Shown: positions 58,539 to 64,000 of the stretch, in pieces
Layout of the letters: every line of letters starts with the position of its first letter
How positions within the stretch are numbered: the first letter of the stretch is position 1
DNA from: Paludibacteraceae bacterium
GTDB lineage: Bacteria; Bacteroidota; Bacteroidia; Bacteroidales; Paludibacteraceae
Assembly: GCA_017454915.1 (NCBI GenBank)
Contig: JAFTCC010000021.1
Coordinates: forward strand, 1-64,000
Length of the DNA stretch: 64,000 nt
Reading direction: 5' to 3'
The notes under the pieces: generated by a model
Databases searched by the model: none
Seen by the model: only the letters and a program-made list of their open reading frames with translations
Told to the model about the DNA's origin: nothing
Translations under genes and position numbers: made by a program

Positions 58539-58754
58539 CCGACGGAGAAATGTCGGCGGCATCATCCTTATGAGAAGGGTTCGGTGATTAGGAACTGGCA
58601 GACTCAACAAATTTATTTTCAGAGGGGTGTAACCTTTAGCCAATGGCGGGCTGCGCCTTCGGGTATGGCAGATTACAAAGGCTTGAGGTAGCCCTAATCC
58701 TATTATTACAGAGTTATTGCTCACGTAAATAAGCCGAGTCCTTCTCTTTTTTTT
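58539..58754 (+). ncRNA. Free-standing structured RNA, possibly 6S-like
   Basis: About 215 bases between a good promoter and a T-tract, with no plausible open frame on the plus strand. 5' hairpin CCGAC/GTCGG (58539-58543 with 58552-58556); a 13-pair closing stem 58572-58584 with 58734-58746 (two G-U pairs); an inner stem GATTAGG/CCTAATC (58586-58592 with 58693-58699); terminal stem-loops in between; and a long unpaired 3' side (58700-58733). A long irregular rod with a large asymmetric bubble and a terminator formed by the closing stem suits 6S RNA. tmRNA, SRP RNA and RNase P RNA motifs are absent. It may be the Bacteroidales-1 RNA motif; that link is from memory. Confidence 0.55.
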
Positions 58755-58799: not shown

Positions 58800-59200
58800 T
58801 TAGACTTGTAGGGACACGACATGTAGTGTCCTTGGTTTTGGCTCACGAATGGCACGGATTTTAACGAATGGGTTTAGTTTTGGTTTGGTGGTTTTTGGTT
58901 CACTAATTAAACGAATTGGACGAATGGGTTGTGGGGTTCCGTGGGTTTCACCCACGGCTAATTTTGTGCCGCCCCTACGGGGCTAAATAAAATTGATGCT
59001 TGCGCTGAAAACCGCGTTAGCGGTGACACAATGTTAGCCGTGGGTGAGTGAGCGTCAGCGAACATAACCCACGGTACGCATCGCACACCACATTCAAGCC
59101 GCGTTAGCGGCGGCACACCATTCCCGTTTTCTGTACAGCCCCTATGGGGCTAAAATCCTGGCCCCCTAAGTCCTTAGATGAAAAGCCAAAGTCCCTTTAT
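58800..59200. repeat. REP-like array of short palindromes
   Basis: About 400 bases with no gene. Contains GGACAC/GTGTCC (58813-58831), CCGTGGGT/ACCCACGG around TTC (58940-58958), GCCCC/GGGGC, two GCCGCGTTAGCGGC-type hairpins (near 59012 and 59099), a larger CCGTGGGT/ACCCACGG hairpin (near 59039-59075) and AGCCCC/GGGGCT (near 59141). The same sequence elements recur within the array. Such arrays are usual for REP/BIME sequences; no transposase is nearby. Confidence 0.6.
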
Positions 59201-59246
59201 GTCCTTAGAAACGAAAGCCGTAGATATAGATAGTCAGTCTCAATAA

Positions 59247-59276
59247 TTGCTGTTTGAAAAACTTTTATTAACTTTG
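59247..59276 (+). promoter_or_regulatory. Promoter of the structured leader and BspA-like gene
   Basis: TTG (59247-59249) and TAACTTTG (59269-59276), 19 bases apart. No other TAnnTTTG is seen between here and the BspA-like start. Confidence 0.65.
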
Positions 59277-59282
59277 CGGTGT

Positions 59283-59549
59283 CGGAAGGCAATTCCGGCA
59301 AAAGACATATTTAATGGCGTTTATTGACGCTGTTTTGCGACTCATGAAAACTTCGCAACTTTTCAAATCTCGGTCGCAACAGTAGCATTAGACGTCCTTC
59401 GTGGGTATATTGTATCCTGATGCCACACAATCAAAGGTGTGGGTGGGATATTTTATATCACAGCGTGGGGCATCAGGTGTTTTCTACCGAGATTTGGGCA
59501 ATGCGAAGGCCTTCATGAGCGTGAAAACAATGTGTTTCACGCTTTTTTT
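59283..59549 (+). ncRNA. Highly structured leader or small RNA with its own terminator
   Basis: About 265 bases from promoter to T-tract. Helices: CGGAA/TTCCG (59283-59287, 59293-59297); GCGT/ACGC (59317-59320, 59327-59330); TTGCGA/TCGCAA (59335-59340, 59353-59358); a perfect 10-pair helix AAATCTCGGT/ACCGAGATTT (59365-59374, 59486-59495); CCTGATGCC/GGCATCAGG (59416-59424, 59469-59477). CCTTCG (59396-59401) can pair with CGAAGG (59504-59509), crossing the 10-pair helix: a possible pseudoknot. CTTCGCA (59351-59357) could pair with the same site instead, so two exclusive folds exist. I do not recognise a known riboswitch. Confidence 0.6.
59518..59549 (+). terminator. Intrinsic terminator inside the BspA-like leader
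   Basis: Nine-pair stem AGCGTGAAA/TTTCACGCT (59518-59526 with 59535-59543), 8-base loop, seven T residues. It lies between the promoter and the start codon, so read-through is needed to express the gene. Confidence 0.85.
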
Positions 59550-59551
59550 GT

Positions 59552-59617
59552 GCACGCTAACGGCGTGCCATGAAAACTACAACAAACAAATTAACAAACA
59601 ATATAAATTCTACAACA
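59552..59617 (+). promoter_or_regulatory. Post-terminator leader of the BspA-like gene
   Basis: Hairpin GCACGC/GCGTGC (59552-59557, 59563-59568), then an A-rich, unstructured stretch up to the ATG. No separate promoter element is visible. Confidence 0.5.
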
Positions 59618-62600
59618 ATGAAAACAAAACTTTTAACTTTTTTGCTTGCGTTTTGGGCGAGCATAGGTGTGGCATTTGCTGATGCCAGCGGCACTTGCGG
59701 CGACAACCTTACATACAGTTATGACTCCTCTACTGGAACCCTAACCATCACAGGATCAGGAGCAATGAAGGATTGGTCATATTATACGCAGGTTCCGTGG
59801 TATTCATATCGCCGCGAAATAAAGACAGTAAATCTGCCTAATGAAGTTACGAGCATAGGAGATTATGCTTTCGAAGGCTGTTTGAGTCTTACGAGCGTGA
59901 TCATCCCTAACAGCGTTACGAGCATAGGGGATAGGGCTTTCTGTGGCTGCAGTGGTTTTACGAGTGTGACCATCCCCGAGAGCGTGACGAGCATCGGAGA
60001 TTTTGCTTTTAGGTACTGCAGTCGCCTTTCGAGCGTGACCATCCCCAACAGCGTGACGAGCATAGGAAATTCAGCTTTCACGGATTGCGATGGGCTTACG
60101 AGCGTGAATATAACAGATATAGCAGTTTGGTGCGGAATAAGTTTTGGGAATGCAGGGTCGAATCCTTTATCCTCTGCTCATAATTTATATCTGAATGGCA
60201 CTAAAGTTACGGATTTGATAATTCCCAACAGCGTGACGAGCATAGGAAATTATGCTTTCTGGAATTGTACCAGCCTTACGAGCGTAACTATTCCCAACAG
60301 CGTGACGAGCATTGGAAGTGAGGCTTTCCAAGGCTGCACAGGTCTTACGAGCGTAACCATCGGCAACAGCGTGACGAGCATAGGCAGTTATGCTTTCTCT
60401 AGCTGCACTGGCCTTACGAGCGTGACCATCCCCAACAGCGTGACCAGCATAGGAGAGCGGGCTTTCCAAGGCTGCACAGGTCTGACGAGCGTGACCATCC
60501 CCAACAGCGTGACGAGCATTGGAAGTTCTGCGTTCTATAATGTTACGAATATCGTTTATAATGGTAGCGCGACAGGTTCTCCTTGGGGAGCACGGAACGT
60601 GAACGGTTATGTTGACGGTTATCTTGTGTATAGCGATGCGAGCAAGACACAATTACTTGCATGTTCTGCCGCAGCAATTGGTTTAATCACCATCCCCGAG
60701 AGCGTGACGAGCATTGGAAATAGTGCTTTCTATGGCTGCAATAATCTTCAATATATAGTGTATGGTGGTTCTGCAATTGGCAGTCCGTGGGGAGCTAACT
60801 GTAGCGTTTGTGCAGCAAAAGAGGGTTTATTATTATTTAGCGATGTAGAAAAAACGCAGCTCGTCAAATGTCTAACAGAAGCAACAGGTGATATTACCAT
60901 CCCCGAGAGCGTGACGAGTATCGGAGATAATGCTTTCTATGAATGCAGTGGTCTTACGAGCGTGACCATCCCAAACAGCGTGACGAGTATCGGAGATAAT
61001 GCTTTCTCTGGCTGCACTGGTCTTACGAGTGTGACCATCGGCAACAGCGTGACAAGCATAGGAAATAGTGCTTTCTCTGAATGCAGTGGGCTTACGAGCG
61101 TAACCATCGGCAACAGCGTGACGAGCATTGGAAATAGTGCTTTCTATGGCTGCAGCGGTCTGACGAGTGTGACCATCCCAAACAGCGTGACAAGCATTGG
61201 AGAGGGGGCTTTCGCAGGCTGCAGTGGTCTTACAAGCGTGGTTTGGAATGCGAAAGATTGTACTGATACTCCTCCCTTCGATAACTCCACCCAAATAACA
61301 TCTTTCGTATTTGGAAGTGCGGTAGAGCATATTCCTGCTAATTTGTGCTATGGTATGACAGGTCTTACAAGTATTGTCGTCCCCGAGAGCGTGACGAGTA
61401 TCGGAAATGATGCTTTCTATAATGTTACGAATATAGTTTATAATGGTAGCGCAACAGGTTCTCCTTGGGGAGCACGGAGCGTGAACGGTTATGTTGACGG
61501 TTATCTTGTGTATAGCGATGCGAGTAAGACACAATTACTTGCATGCTCTGCCGCAGCAACTGGTTTAATCACCATCCCCGAGAGCGTGACGAGTATCGGA
61601 GATTATGCTTTCCGTGACTGCACAGGTCTTACGAGTGTGACCATCCCCAATGGCGTGAAGAGCATAGGAGGTAGTGCCTTCAATGGCTGCGATGGTCTTA
61701 CAAGCGTGGTATGGAACGCAAAGAATTGTGCTGATTTTACTTCTTCATCAAATTCTCCCTTCTATAGCATACGCACCCAAATAACATCATTCGAGATTGG
61801 AAGTGTGGTAGAGCATATTCCTGGTTATTTATGCTACGGTATGAAAGGTCTTACGAGTGTTACCATCCCCAACAGCGTGACGAGCATTGGTAACTATGCT
61901 TTCTATGGCTGCACAGGTCTTACGAGCGTGACCATACCCAACAGCGTGACGAGCATAGGATATGATGCTTTCGCTGGCTGCAGTGGTCTTACGAGCGTGA
62001 CCATCCCAAACAGCGTGACGAGCATAGGAAGTTATGCTTTCTCTAGCTGCACTGGTCTTACGAGCGTGACCATCGGCAACAGCGTGACGAGCATAGGAAA
62101 TAGTGCTTTCTCTGAATGCAGTGGGCTTACGAGCGTAACCATCGGCAACAGCGTGACGAGCATAGGAAATTCAGCTTTCACGGATTGCGATGGGCTTACG
62201 AGCGTGAATATAACAGATATAGCAGCTTGGTGCGGAATAAGTTTTGGGAATGCAGGGTCGAATCCTTTATCCTCTGCTCATAATTTATATCTGAATGGCA
62301 CTAAAGTTACGGATTTGATAATTCCCAATGGAGTTACTGGCATAGGAAATTTTGCTTTCTGGAATTGTAACAGCCTTACGAGCGTGACCATCCCCAACAG
62401 CGTGACGAGCATTGGAAGTTCTGCGTTCTCGGGCTGTACTGGCTTGACTAACGTGAAAATAAACGATATTTCAGTTTGGTGCGGAATAAGTTTTTCGGAT
62501 GACGCTTCGAATCCTTTATCCTCTGCTCATAATTTATATCTGAATGGCACTAAAGTTACGGATTTGATAATTCCCGATGGAGTTATGAGCATTAGAAATT

Positions 62601-64000
62601 ATGCTTTCTATGACTGCACAGGGCTTACGAGCGTGGTTATAGGCAACAGCGTGACGACCATTGGAAATAATGCTTTCTCTAAGTGCAGTGGTTTGACGAG
62701 CGTGACGATACACAACAGCGTGACGAGCATAGGAGATTGGGCTTTCTGGAGCTGCAGTGGTCTTACGAGCGTAATCATCCCCGATGGCGTGACGAGAATA
62801 GGGAATTGGGCTTTCAATAGCTGCAGTGGTTTGACTAGTGTGACCATCCCAAACAGCGTGACGAGCATAGGAACTTATTCGTTTTCCGGTTGCAGCGGAC
62901 TCCAGAATATATTTTTACAAAGTGCCATACCTCCTTACATAAGAACAAAATATGAAAGTTGCGGCAAAGAGTATTTCACATCTACCACAATTCCGATTTA
63001 TGTTCCATTTCAGAGTGTGGATGAATACTTATCATCAAACTGCTGGGGGCGTTATAATATCCAGAGTTCACTCGCTGTTGAAAAGGTGTTGGCACCTACA
63101 AGCGTCGTTATGACATTAGACGATATGTATAGTGCTAATGATGATGTAGATATTGTTTCCGTTGGCGTTGACGGCGGCGAGATGATTGAGGGCAATACGA
63201 TGGAGTACATAGGATTGGAGCCGGAAAGCGAATATGCGGATGTTCCTATTGCGATATTGCTATCGTCAGGCGATGTGGTTAAGACTTCGGTGTCATTCAC
63301 CACTACAGCCTTGACGCTCAATACACTTCCTTCCAAGGCGGTGTCAAGCAATACGGCGATACTGCTTGCCGAGACCAACATGTCCGACTCGGAGGTGAGC
63401 TGTGGTTTCGAGTGGAAGCGCAACGACGCGCCTGACGACATGGCAGGCACAATGGTTTACTGCCCGGTGGCAAACGGCATGATGGCTGGCAGGCTCAAGG
63501 GACTGAAAGATGATGTCTATTACAAGTACCGCGCATTCTACAAGTCGTCAGCCGACAATATGCACTACGGCAGCTGGCAGTACATATTCACCGGCGACAA
63601 CGCTGTTGAGTTTGACCCCGTGCTTTACACCTATGCAGCCTCTTCTGTGAGCGAGAGTGGTGCCACGCTGCGCGGTTATGCGCTTGCCGGCTCTGATGAC
63701 TTCACGGAGCAGGGCTTTGAGTACTGGATTGACAGCCGTGTGGACAACCAGCAAGAGGCCGCGTCCGCCCAGATGCGCGCGCCGGTGGCTAACGCTGAAC
63801 ATCATAGGGTTCAGGCGACGGGCATAGCTATGAAGGTCGGCATCACCGGACTTGACGAGGGCACGGTTTACAAGTATCGCACCTATGCCAAGATAGGACA
63901 GCAGACGGTTTACGGAGCGGAGATGTCGTTCACGACAAAGGGCGTGTGGATTGAACCCACCGCACTTGAGGGCGTGGTGGACGCTGACGAGGCTTCATTA
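59618..64000 (+). CDS. BspA-like leucine-rich repeat surface protein (3' end beyond window)
   Basis: 1,461 codons, open to the right edge. Signal peptide (KLLTFLLAFWASIGVAFA), then a cap (TCGDNLTYSYDSSTGTLTIT) and 30 LRR_5/TpLRR units of 23 residues built on LTSVTIPNSVTSIGxxAFxxC. Insert modules recur: SVNITDIAVWCGISFG-type (three times), NGSATGSPWGARNVNGY-type (three times, one diverged) and VVWNAKDCTD-type (twice). From about residue 1100 come fibronectin-III-like domains (VVKTSVSFTTTALT, GTVYKYRTYAKIGQQTVYG). Related proteins are cell-surface adhesins in Bacteroidales and trichomonads; a sorting tail would be past the edge. The frame was followed at several points across the repeats without a break. 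Confidence 0.9.
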   Translation, partial: MKTKLLTFLLAFWASIGVAFADASGTCGDNLTYSYDSSTGTLTITGSGAMKDWSYYTQVPWYSYRREIKTVNLPNEVTSIGDYAFEGCLSLTSVIIPNSVTSIGDRAFCGCSGFTSVTIPESVTSIGDFAFRYCSRLSSVTIPNSVTSIGNSAFTDCDGLTSVNITDIAVWCGISFGNAGSNPLSSAHNLYLNGTKVTDLIIPNSVTSIGNYAFWNCTSLTSVTIPNSVTSIGSEAFQGCTGLTSVTIGNSVTSIGSYAFSSCTGLTSVTIPNSVTSIGERAFQGCTGLTSVTIPNSVTSIGSSAFYNVTNIVYNGSATGSPWGARNVNGYVDGYLVYSDASKTQLLACSAAAIGLITIPESVTSIGNSAFYGCNNLQYIVYGGSAIGSPWGANCSVCAAKEGLLLFSDVEKTQLVKCLTEATGDITIPESVTSIGDNAFYECSGLTSVTIPNSVTSIGDNAFSGCTGLTSVTIGNSVTSIGNSAFSECSGLTSVTIGNSVTSIGNSAFYGCSGLTSVTIPNSVTSIGEGAFAGCSGLTSVVWNAKDCTDTPPFDNSTQITSFVFGSAVEHIPANLCYGMTGLTSIVVPESVTSIGNDAFYNVTNIVYNGSATGSPWGARSVNGYVDGYLVYSDASKTQLLACSAAATGLITIPESVTSIGDYAFRDCTGLTSVTIPNGVKSIGGSAFNGCDGLTSVVWNAKNCADFTSSSNSPFYSIRTQITSFEIGSVVEHIPGYLCYGMKGLTSVTIPNSVTSIGNYAFYGCTGLTSVTIPNSVTSIGYDAFAGCSGLTSVTIPNSVTSIGSYAFSSCTGLTSVTIGNSVTSIGNSAFSECSGLTSVTIGNSVTSIGNSAFTDCDGLTSVNITDIAAWCGISFGNAGSNPLSSAHNLYLNGTKVTDLIIPNGVTGIGNFAFWNCNSLTSVTIPNSVTSIGSSAFSGCTGLTNVKINDISVWCGISFSDDASNPLSSAHNLYLNGTKVTDLIIPDGVMSIRNYAFYDCTGLTSVVIGNSVTTIGNNAFSKCSGLTSVTIHNSVTSIGDWAFWSCSGLTSVIIPDGVTRIGNWAFNSCSGLTSVTIPNSVTSIGTYSFSGCSGLQNIFLQSAIPPYIRTKYESCGKEYFTSTTIPIYVPFQSVDEYLSSNCWGRYNIQSSLAVEKVLAPTSVVMTLDDMYSANDDVDIVSVGVDGGEMIEGNTMEYIGLEPESEYADVPIAILLSSGDVVKTSVSFTTTALTLNTLPSKAVSSNTAILLAETNMSDSEVSCGFEWKRNDAPDDMAGTMVYCPVANGMMAGRLKGLKDDVYYKYRAFYKSSADNMHYGSWQYIFTGDNAVEFDPVLYTYAASSVSESGATLRGYALAGSDDFTEQGFEYWIDSRVDNQQEAASAQMRAPVANAEHHRVQATGIAMKVGITGLDEGTVYKYRTYAKIGQQTVYGAEMSFTTKGVWIEPTALEGVVDADEASL
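60045..60227 (+). repeat. Long near-identical internal repeat of the BspA-like gene, copy 1
   Basis: Bases 60061-60227 match 62161-62327 exactly 2,100 bases away with a single difference (T at 60126, C at 62226). A third, shorter copy shares the last part (62507-62575). All spacings keep the reading frame. Confidence 0.9.
60540..60710 (+). repeat. Second internal repeat module of the BspA-like gene, copy 1
   Basis: Matches 61422-61592 at an offset of 882 bases with few differences; a diverged third version is at 60747-60920. It encodes the VTNIVYNGSATGSPWGAR module. Confidence 0.85.

Follow-up and report, generated by a model that had tools for sequence, protein, structure and literature searches.

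Related regulatory leaders

Transcription-attenuating riboswitches lie in 5′ leaders, where a conserved pseudoknotted domain is combined with mutually exclusive helices around an intrinsic terminator, and they can occur in many copies per genome. The c-di-GMP riboswitches control multiple genes and are often found ahead of surface genes, and the NusG paralogues UpxY and LoaP mediate antitermination at structured leaders that precede surface or secondary-metabolite genes. The element described here, at 59,247–59,617 of a 64,000-nucleotide stretch of Paludibacteraceae DNA (the window), lies ahead of a gene for a BspA-type surface protein. Judged from its sequence and that of its relatives, it appears to be a structured, cis-acting RNA that attenuates transcription in the manner of a riboswitch or a protein-gated attenuator, a reading to which we assign a probability of about 0.78.

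The element shares with attenuating riboswitches the 5′ leader position, the conserved pseudoknotted domain, the mutually exclusive helices around the terminator and the many copies per genome, but it has neither an Rfam match nor a common downstream pathway, and it is predicted to dock along the entire loop of a hairpin. At the gathering thresholds of Rfam 15, no family matched the element in the window or at 20 further loci; at an E-value threshold, the best match in the window was rli42, whose 18.5 bits fall short of the cut-off (80), and a scan of all 4227 families gave no match of the T-box model to the leader. The preliminary description had recognised no TPP, cobalamin, FMN, SAM, THF or c-di-GMP consensus in the leader. 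No account of the element was found in the literature searched, most subscription journals and all supplements being outside that search.

Like the c-di-GMP riboswitches, the element is one RNA class placed before many diverse surface-related genes, but it does not match their Rfam families, and GGDEF proteins are absent from all five carrier genomes tested, which counts against c-di-GMP as the signal. A DAC-domain protein is present in five of five carrier genomes tested, which permits c-di-AMP without being specific support for it. Leaders of the UpxY/LoaP type resemble the element in their position before such genes and in their antitermination logic, whereas here the terminator sits inside the element. 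Four of the five carrier genomes (G000 and three others, the window's genome included) encode one NusG-family protein and the fifth (G248) encodes two; the four thus have no dedicated NusG paralogue.

Two further RNAs invite comparison. Bacteroidales-1, or 6S RNA (RF01693), is likewise a structured RNA of Bacteroidales that carries a promoter and a terminator of its own, but it corresponds to a separate neighbouring gene at 58,582–58,745 (+ strand), and the element itself does not match it. That interval is likely a 6S RNA gene despite a score slightly below the gathering cut-off (53.2 bits against 60, E = 3.9e-8); it is situated between groES and the leader, with a promoter-like box and a U-run of its own. 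HMP2_1881 is a 108-bp Bacteroidetes candidate from the human microbiome, located near radical-SAM genes (PMC8040213). Compared by description only, it shares with the element its Bacteroidetes origin and, for some of the present copies, the proximity to radical-SAM genes; it might be a fragment of the element's family, or unrelated.

The traits of a riboswitch found here are the leader position, a conserved, structured, aptamer-like domain and, in predicted folds, alternative partners for both terminator arms supported by covariation. The structured leader class is new and of a known general kind; the term riboswitch proper is not claimable without a ligand.

Organization of the leader

All parts of the leader lie on the + strand, between a promoter at about 59,246 and a U-run ending at 59,549, as judged by sequence inspection. 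The promoter (59,246–59,276) is of the Bacteroidales type, with a −33-like aTTG at 59,246–59,249, 19 intervening nucleotides and the −7 box TAACTTTG at 59,269–59,276, and it predicts an RNA start at ~59,281–59,284. A 5′ hairpin, TCGGAA/TTCCGG (59,280–59,308), is variable in sequence among aligned copies and runs into the block that is most conserved in the covariance model R1, GACATA..GGCGTTTATTG (59,304–59,326). At four other loci (L080, L092, L072 and L069), GACATA is directly preceded by small hairpins in tandem, of the GTCGCTnnCCGACGTAAAACAG type, and such hairpins take the place of the window's 5′ hairpin in many Paludibacteraceae copies.

The long hairpin P2 is built from a lower helix (5′ arm 59,316–59,326) and an upper helix (5′ arm 59,329–59,341, partner 59,373–59,386), the 3′ arms of both occupying 59,373–59,397; the upper helix contains seven exact pairs between TTGCGAC (59,335–59,341) and GTCGCAA (59,373–59,379). 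Three strands of the P2 loop have partners more than 100 nucleotides downstream. The Ha strand CTCATGAA (59,341–59,348) is complementary to 59,512–59,519; the apical kissing strand CTTCGCA (59,351–59,357) to 59,502–59,508, including the crossing pairing of TTCGCA (59,352–59,357) with TGCGAA (59,502–59,507); and the Hc strand CAAATCTCGG (59,364–59,373) forms an exact 10-pair inverted repeat with CCGAGATTTG (59,487–59,496).

Between P2 and these partners lies a middle domain (59,403–59,459), in which P4 (GGGTATA/TATATC) encloses a variable P5/P5a arm. The P5 5′ arm CCTGATGCC (59,416–59,424) forms an exact 9-pair helix with GGCATCAGG (59,469–59,477). The latter belongs to a beta segment, AGCGTGGGGCATCAGG (59,462–59,477), which may pair upstream as P5 or, through GCGTGGG, with the 3′ arm of the terminator as P7. 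The Hd 5′ arm TGTTTTC (59,478–59,484) pairs with GAAAACA (59,523–59,529), overlapping the 5′ arm of the terminator. The docking strand (59,487–59,519) comprises the 3′ strands of Hc and Ha and, between them, the tentative P6 hairpin (GGGC/GGCC), which carries the kissing loop TGCGAAG (59,502–59,508). The intrinsic terminator, GCGTGAAA...TTTCACGC followed by seven T residues, occupies 59,519–59,549.

The promoter, the 10-pair and 9-pair helices, the crossing 6-pair and the 7-pair interactions and the terminator were thus all recovered at or near the places where the preliminary description had put them. It had also seen no second promoter ahead of the ATG, and a scan of the stretch from 59,550 to the ATG revealed no TAnnTTTG box. 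The gene itself (59,618–64,000, + strand, from the list of open reading frames) encodes a secreted BspA-type leucine-rich-repeat protein and extends beyond the window end; related downstream proteins match Pfam LRR_5. The placement of the leader before a giant adhesin-like gene stands, with two refinements: 59,618 is a likelier start codon than the upstream in-frame ATG at 59,570, and the leader is not unique.

Upstream, at 58,948–59,154, the intergenic region holds short palindromic repeats, GCCGCGTTAGCGG and AGCCCCTA(C/T)GGGGCTAAA, with 30-nucleotide inverted arms at 58,948–58,977 and 59,018–59,047; they look like REP-type intergenic repeats.

Copies and downstream genes

At the DNA level, the genome that contains the window holds further copies, which align with the leader all the way from promoter to terminator at ~66–80% identity. 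Searched with R1, a covariance model built from the 5′ hairpin of the leader, this genome carries eight copies, the window leader included; matches occur in 247 of 358 Paludibacteraceae genomes and in 63 of 393 genomes sampled evenly across Bacteroidales, and the number per genome reaches 20 once many more candidates are scored. The scan of Bacteroidales proposed earlier thus did find copies ahead of other surface-protein genes. Matches of a pattern scan fall nearly all in Paludibacteraceae and uncultured Bacteroidales of gut and rumen. The element pattern had no match in the viral collection IMG/VR, and blastn of the window copy against plasmid and phage collections returned none. Within the genus, unrelated genes are preceded by similar leaders that share the promoter, which suggests a portable module.

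Some loci deserve separate mention. Near the end of contig C38 of the window's own genome (L008, 1501–1529), 29 nucleotides match the promoter alone, at 93%, the rest of the element being missing. At L038 (7304–7512), a second copy lies on the opposite strand ~2 kb from a full one; it is truncated, lacking the 3′ docking part, and is possibly a decaying copy. In another family, one copy (L103) lies within ~0.6 kb of two neighbouring tRNA genes.

Of 161 copies, 101 have an exact TAnnTTTG ahead of the core, compared with 6.4% of background 120-nucleotide windows, and 147 of 164 copies carry a T-rich tail close to their last stem. Downstream sequence could be read for 152 copies; in 147 of these the following gene is co-oriented, and in the other 5 it points the opposite way. 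The start codon lies a median of 39 nucleotides beyond the U-run; gene calling relied on a simple script, and individual distances may therefore be inexact. A further promoter rarely fits in between.

These figures bear on whether the element might instead be a family of independent small-RNA genes, each yielding a terminated, trans-acting RNA of ~265 nucleotides, with leaky transcription accounting for expression of the downstream gene. Its own promoter and the strong terminator in most copies would suit such a gene, as would the few copies without a co-oriented gene (L036, L085, L086, L156 and L200) and a possible 5′–3′ closing helix, P1. That 147 of 152 copies directly precede a co-oriented gene, mostly with no room for a further promoter, nevertheless weakens this idea, which the preliminary description had offered as its alternative, and we regard it as unlikely.

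The downstream genes are diverse: 143 proteins fall into 72 families, mutually unrelated at E < 1e-5. BspA-type repeat proteins account for ~30% of them and make up most of the largest cluster (n = 43; LRR_5). Other products include Cys-rich peptide precursors, glycosyltransferases, outer-membrane proteins and lipoproteins, along with defence-type genes encoding restriction-modification enzymes and PADLOC defence families. TIGR04117 (Cys-Xaa-Xaa-Xaa repeat radical-SAM target) is matched by nine downstream proteins. By a crude test, signal peptides are present in 86 of 147 downstream proteins and in 114 of 437 control genes. This diversity is too great to point to any ligand. As observations on individual loci, TIGR04117 peptides are encoded downstream of at least nine copies, and in two genera (L037 and L044) the element lies ahead of an orthologous operon that encodes a radical-SAM protein together with a Cys-rich SRREFF peptide.

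Covariation supports pairing of the P2 loop with a downstream strand

Covarying columns were identified in 164 copies, and each helix was scored in 84 divergent copies by a swap test, in which partner strands are exchanged between copies and the loss of pairing is expressed as z. Covariation is strongest in the columns of Ha and the kissing helix, which connect the P2 loop to the segment preceding the terminator; P2 and Hd come next. The docking helices have the highest swap scores (Ha 33.7, Hc 26.9, kissing helix 16.8). P2 scores 13.8 in its upper and 7.1 in its lower part, and P3 3.5; Hd reaches 11.9, P5a 11.7, the local terminator 9.1, P5 8.4, P4 8.2 and P7 7.2, and four wrong-partner controls lie between −1.9 and 0.7. 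Changes on both sides were seen in 7 of 7 pairs of Ha and 6 of 7 of the kissing helix. Pairing is retained in 98.3% of cells for the kissing helix, 97% for P7 and 96.9% for lower P2. The covariation that the preliminary description had expected in the 10-pair (Hc) and 6-pair (kissing) helices is thus present. The structure is also more than chance: the leader RNA folds with z = −6.7, none of 100 shuffles being equally stable, and its main helices are held by covariation in relatives.

Across the 84 divergent copies, a pseudoknotted structure of 52 pairs is paired in 92.3% of cells. Two-sided compensated cells number 628, compared with 206 in shuffles, which leave relatedness in, and 81–171 in slid controls; the slid and wrong-partner controls carry the same relatedness because they use the identical sequences.

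G-U pairs number 733 and A-C mismatches 55, and therefore the conserved molecule is the plus-strand RNA, the strand that reads into the gene. The same asymmetry largely refutes a dispersed DNA element beside accessory genes, whether an invertible repeat, an attC-like recombination site or a MITE. Many copies beside unrelated genes, and leaders alike down to the promoter before unrelated genes, are what such an element might leave, but the orientation of promoter and terminator relative to the gene is kept and the plasmid, phage and viral collections lack matches; we consider this explanation very improbable. The invertible segment suggested earlier for the 10-base repeat is rejected, as the repeat varies among copies with compensating changes and the plus strand carries the G-U pairs.

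The remaining helices are less certain. P1, in which the GACATA block may pair with the 3′ arm of the terminator (z = 4.7), is a weakly supported closing helix. For P6 the swap test gave no separate sign of covariation (z = 1.7, 84 copies), although by eye its arms alternate among GGGC/GGCC, AGGT/ACCT and GGGT/ACCC. A helix between the 5′ GACATA and the sequence past the U-run was appealing by eye and failed the swap test (z = 1.1).

Applied to seven copies, RNAalifold recovered P2 and not the docking helices. When pseudoknots are disallowed in folding, the docked duplex is more stable than P2 by a median of 15.5 kcal/mol over the 84 copies, and most docking pairs are present in the optimal fold of 79. 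The local terminator hairpin is weak in 9 of the 84.

A proposed fold-switching attenuator

In the proposed mechanism, transcription would begin at ~59,282 and P2 could form first. The segment at 59,487–59,519 is complementary to the apical loop of P2 in three blocks (Ha, the kissing helix and Hc), and the 3′ part may therefore dock onto P2 or invade it. Both terminator arms are contested: the 5′ arm GCGTGAAAAC overlaps Hd, formed with TGTTTTC, and abuts Ha, and the 3′ arm may pair locally, as the terminator, or with the upstream GCGTGGG, as P7, from which GCGTGGG could in turn be removed by P5 pairing. The winning pairing would decide between a terminated leader of ~265 nucleotides and read-through into the surface-protein gene. 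The leader thus probably determines whether transcription runs on into the gene. In the folding model, a docked duplex that is favoured while P2 is transcribed first would have the layout of a kinetic attenuator; docking and P2 might also coexist as one pseudoknot with no switch. We infer that a signal drives the switching between folds and is sensed through docking rather than through P5/P7.

Two sets of copies are at odds with this scheme. The nine with a weak local hairpin do not fit a simple local-terminator model, and in them P7 would have to act as the terminator stem; the five without a co-oriented gene count against attenuation itself. A fold that governs mRNA stability or translation, instead of transcription termination, would be in keeping with a highly structured element that remains in the 5′ UTR of the read-through transcript. 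The T-rich tail near the last stem in most copies and the overlap of covarying helices with the terminator arms, rather than the start codon, speak against it, and its probability is low, level with that of the independent small RNA. The best-supported reading is the one first suggested, in which the leader switches folds and thereby attenuates transcription of the surface-protein gene, given the conservation, the covariation, the crossing pairing, the terminator, the lack of promoter room and the many copies.

Implications

The arrangement, if correct, would be of structural interest irrespective of its trigger, with three consecutive helices between one loop and a downstream strand, and competition for both terminator arms. 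A wider proposal, to which we give slightly less than even odds, is that these leaders form an uncatalogued, order-wide class of riboswitch type, whose hallmark would be a downstream strand that reads out the full length of a hairpin loop. By sensing one signal, such a class would give gut Bacteroidales a single portable RNA control over adhesins, defence genes and modified peptides, at ~20 sites per genome at most. If so, many rumen and gut Bacteroidales would govern adhesins, peptide products and defence genes through a single RNA missing from Rfam, and a shared signal or factor for surface remodelling would be exposed, which could be sought with reporter and in vitro assays.
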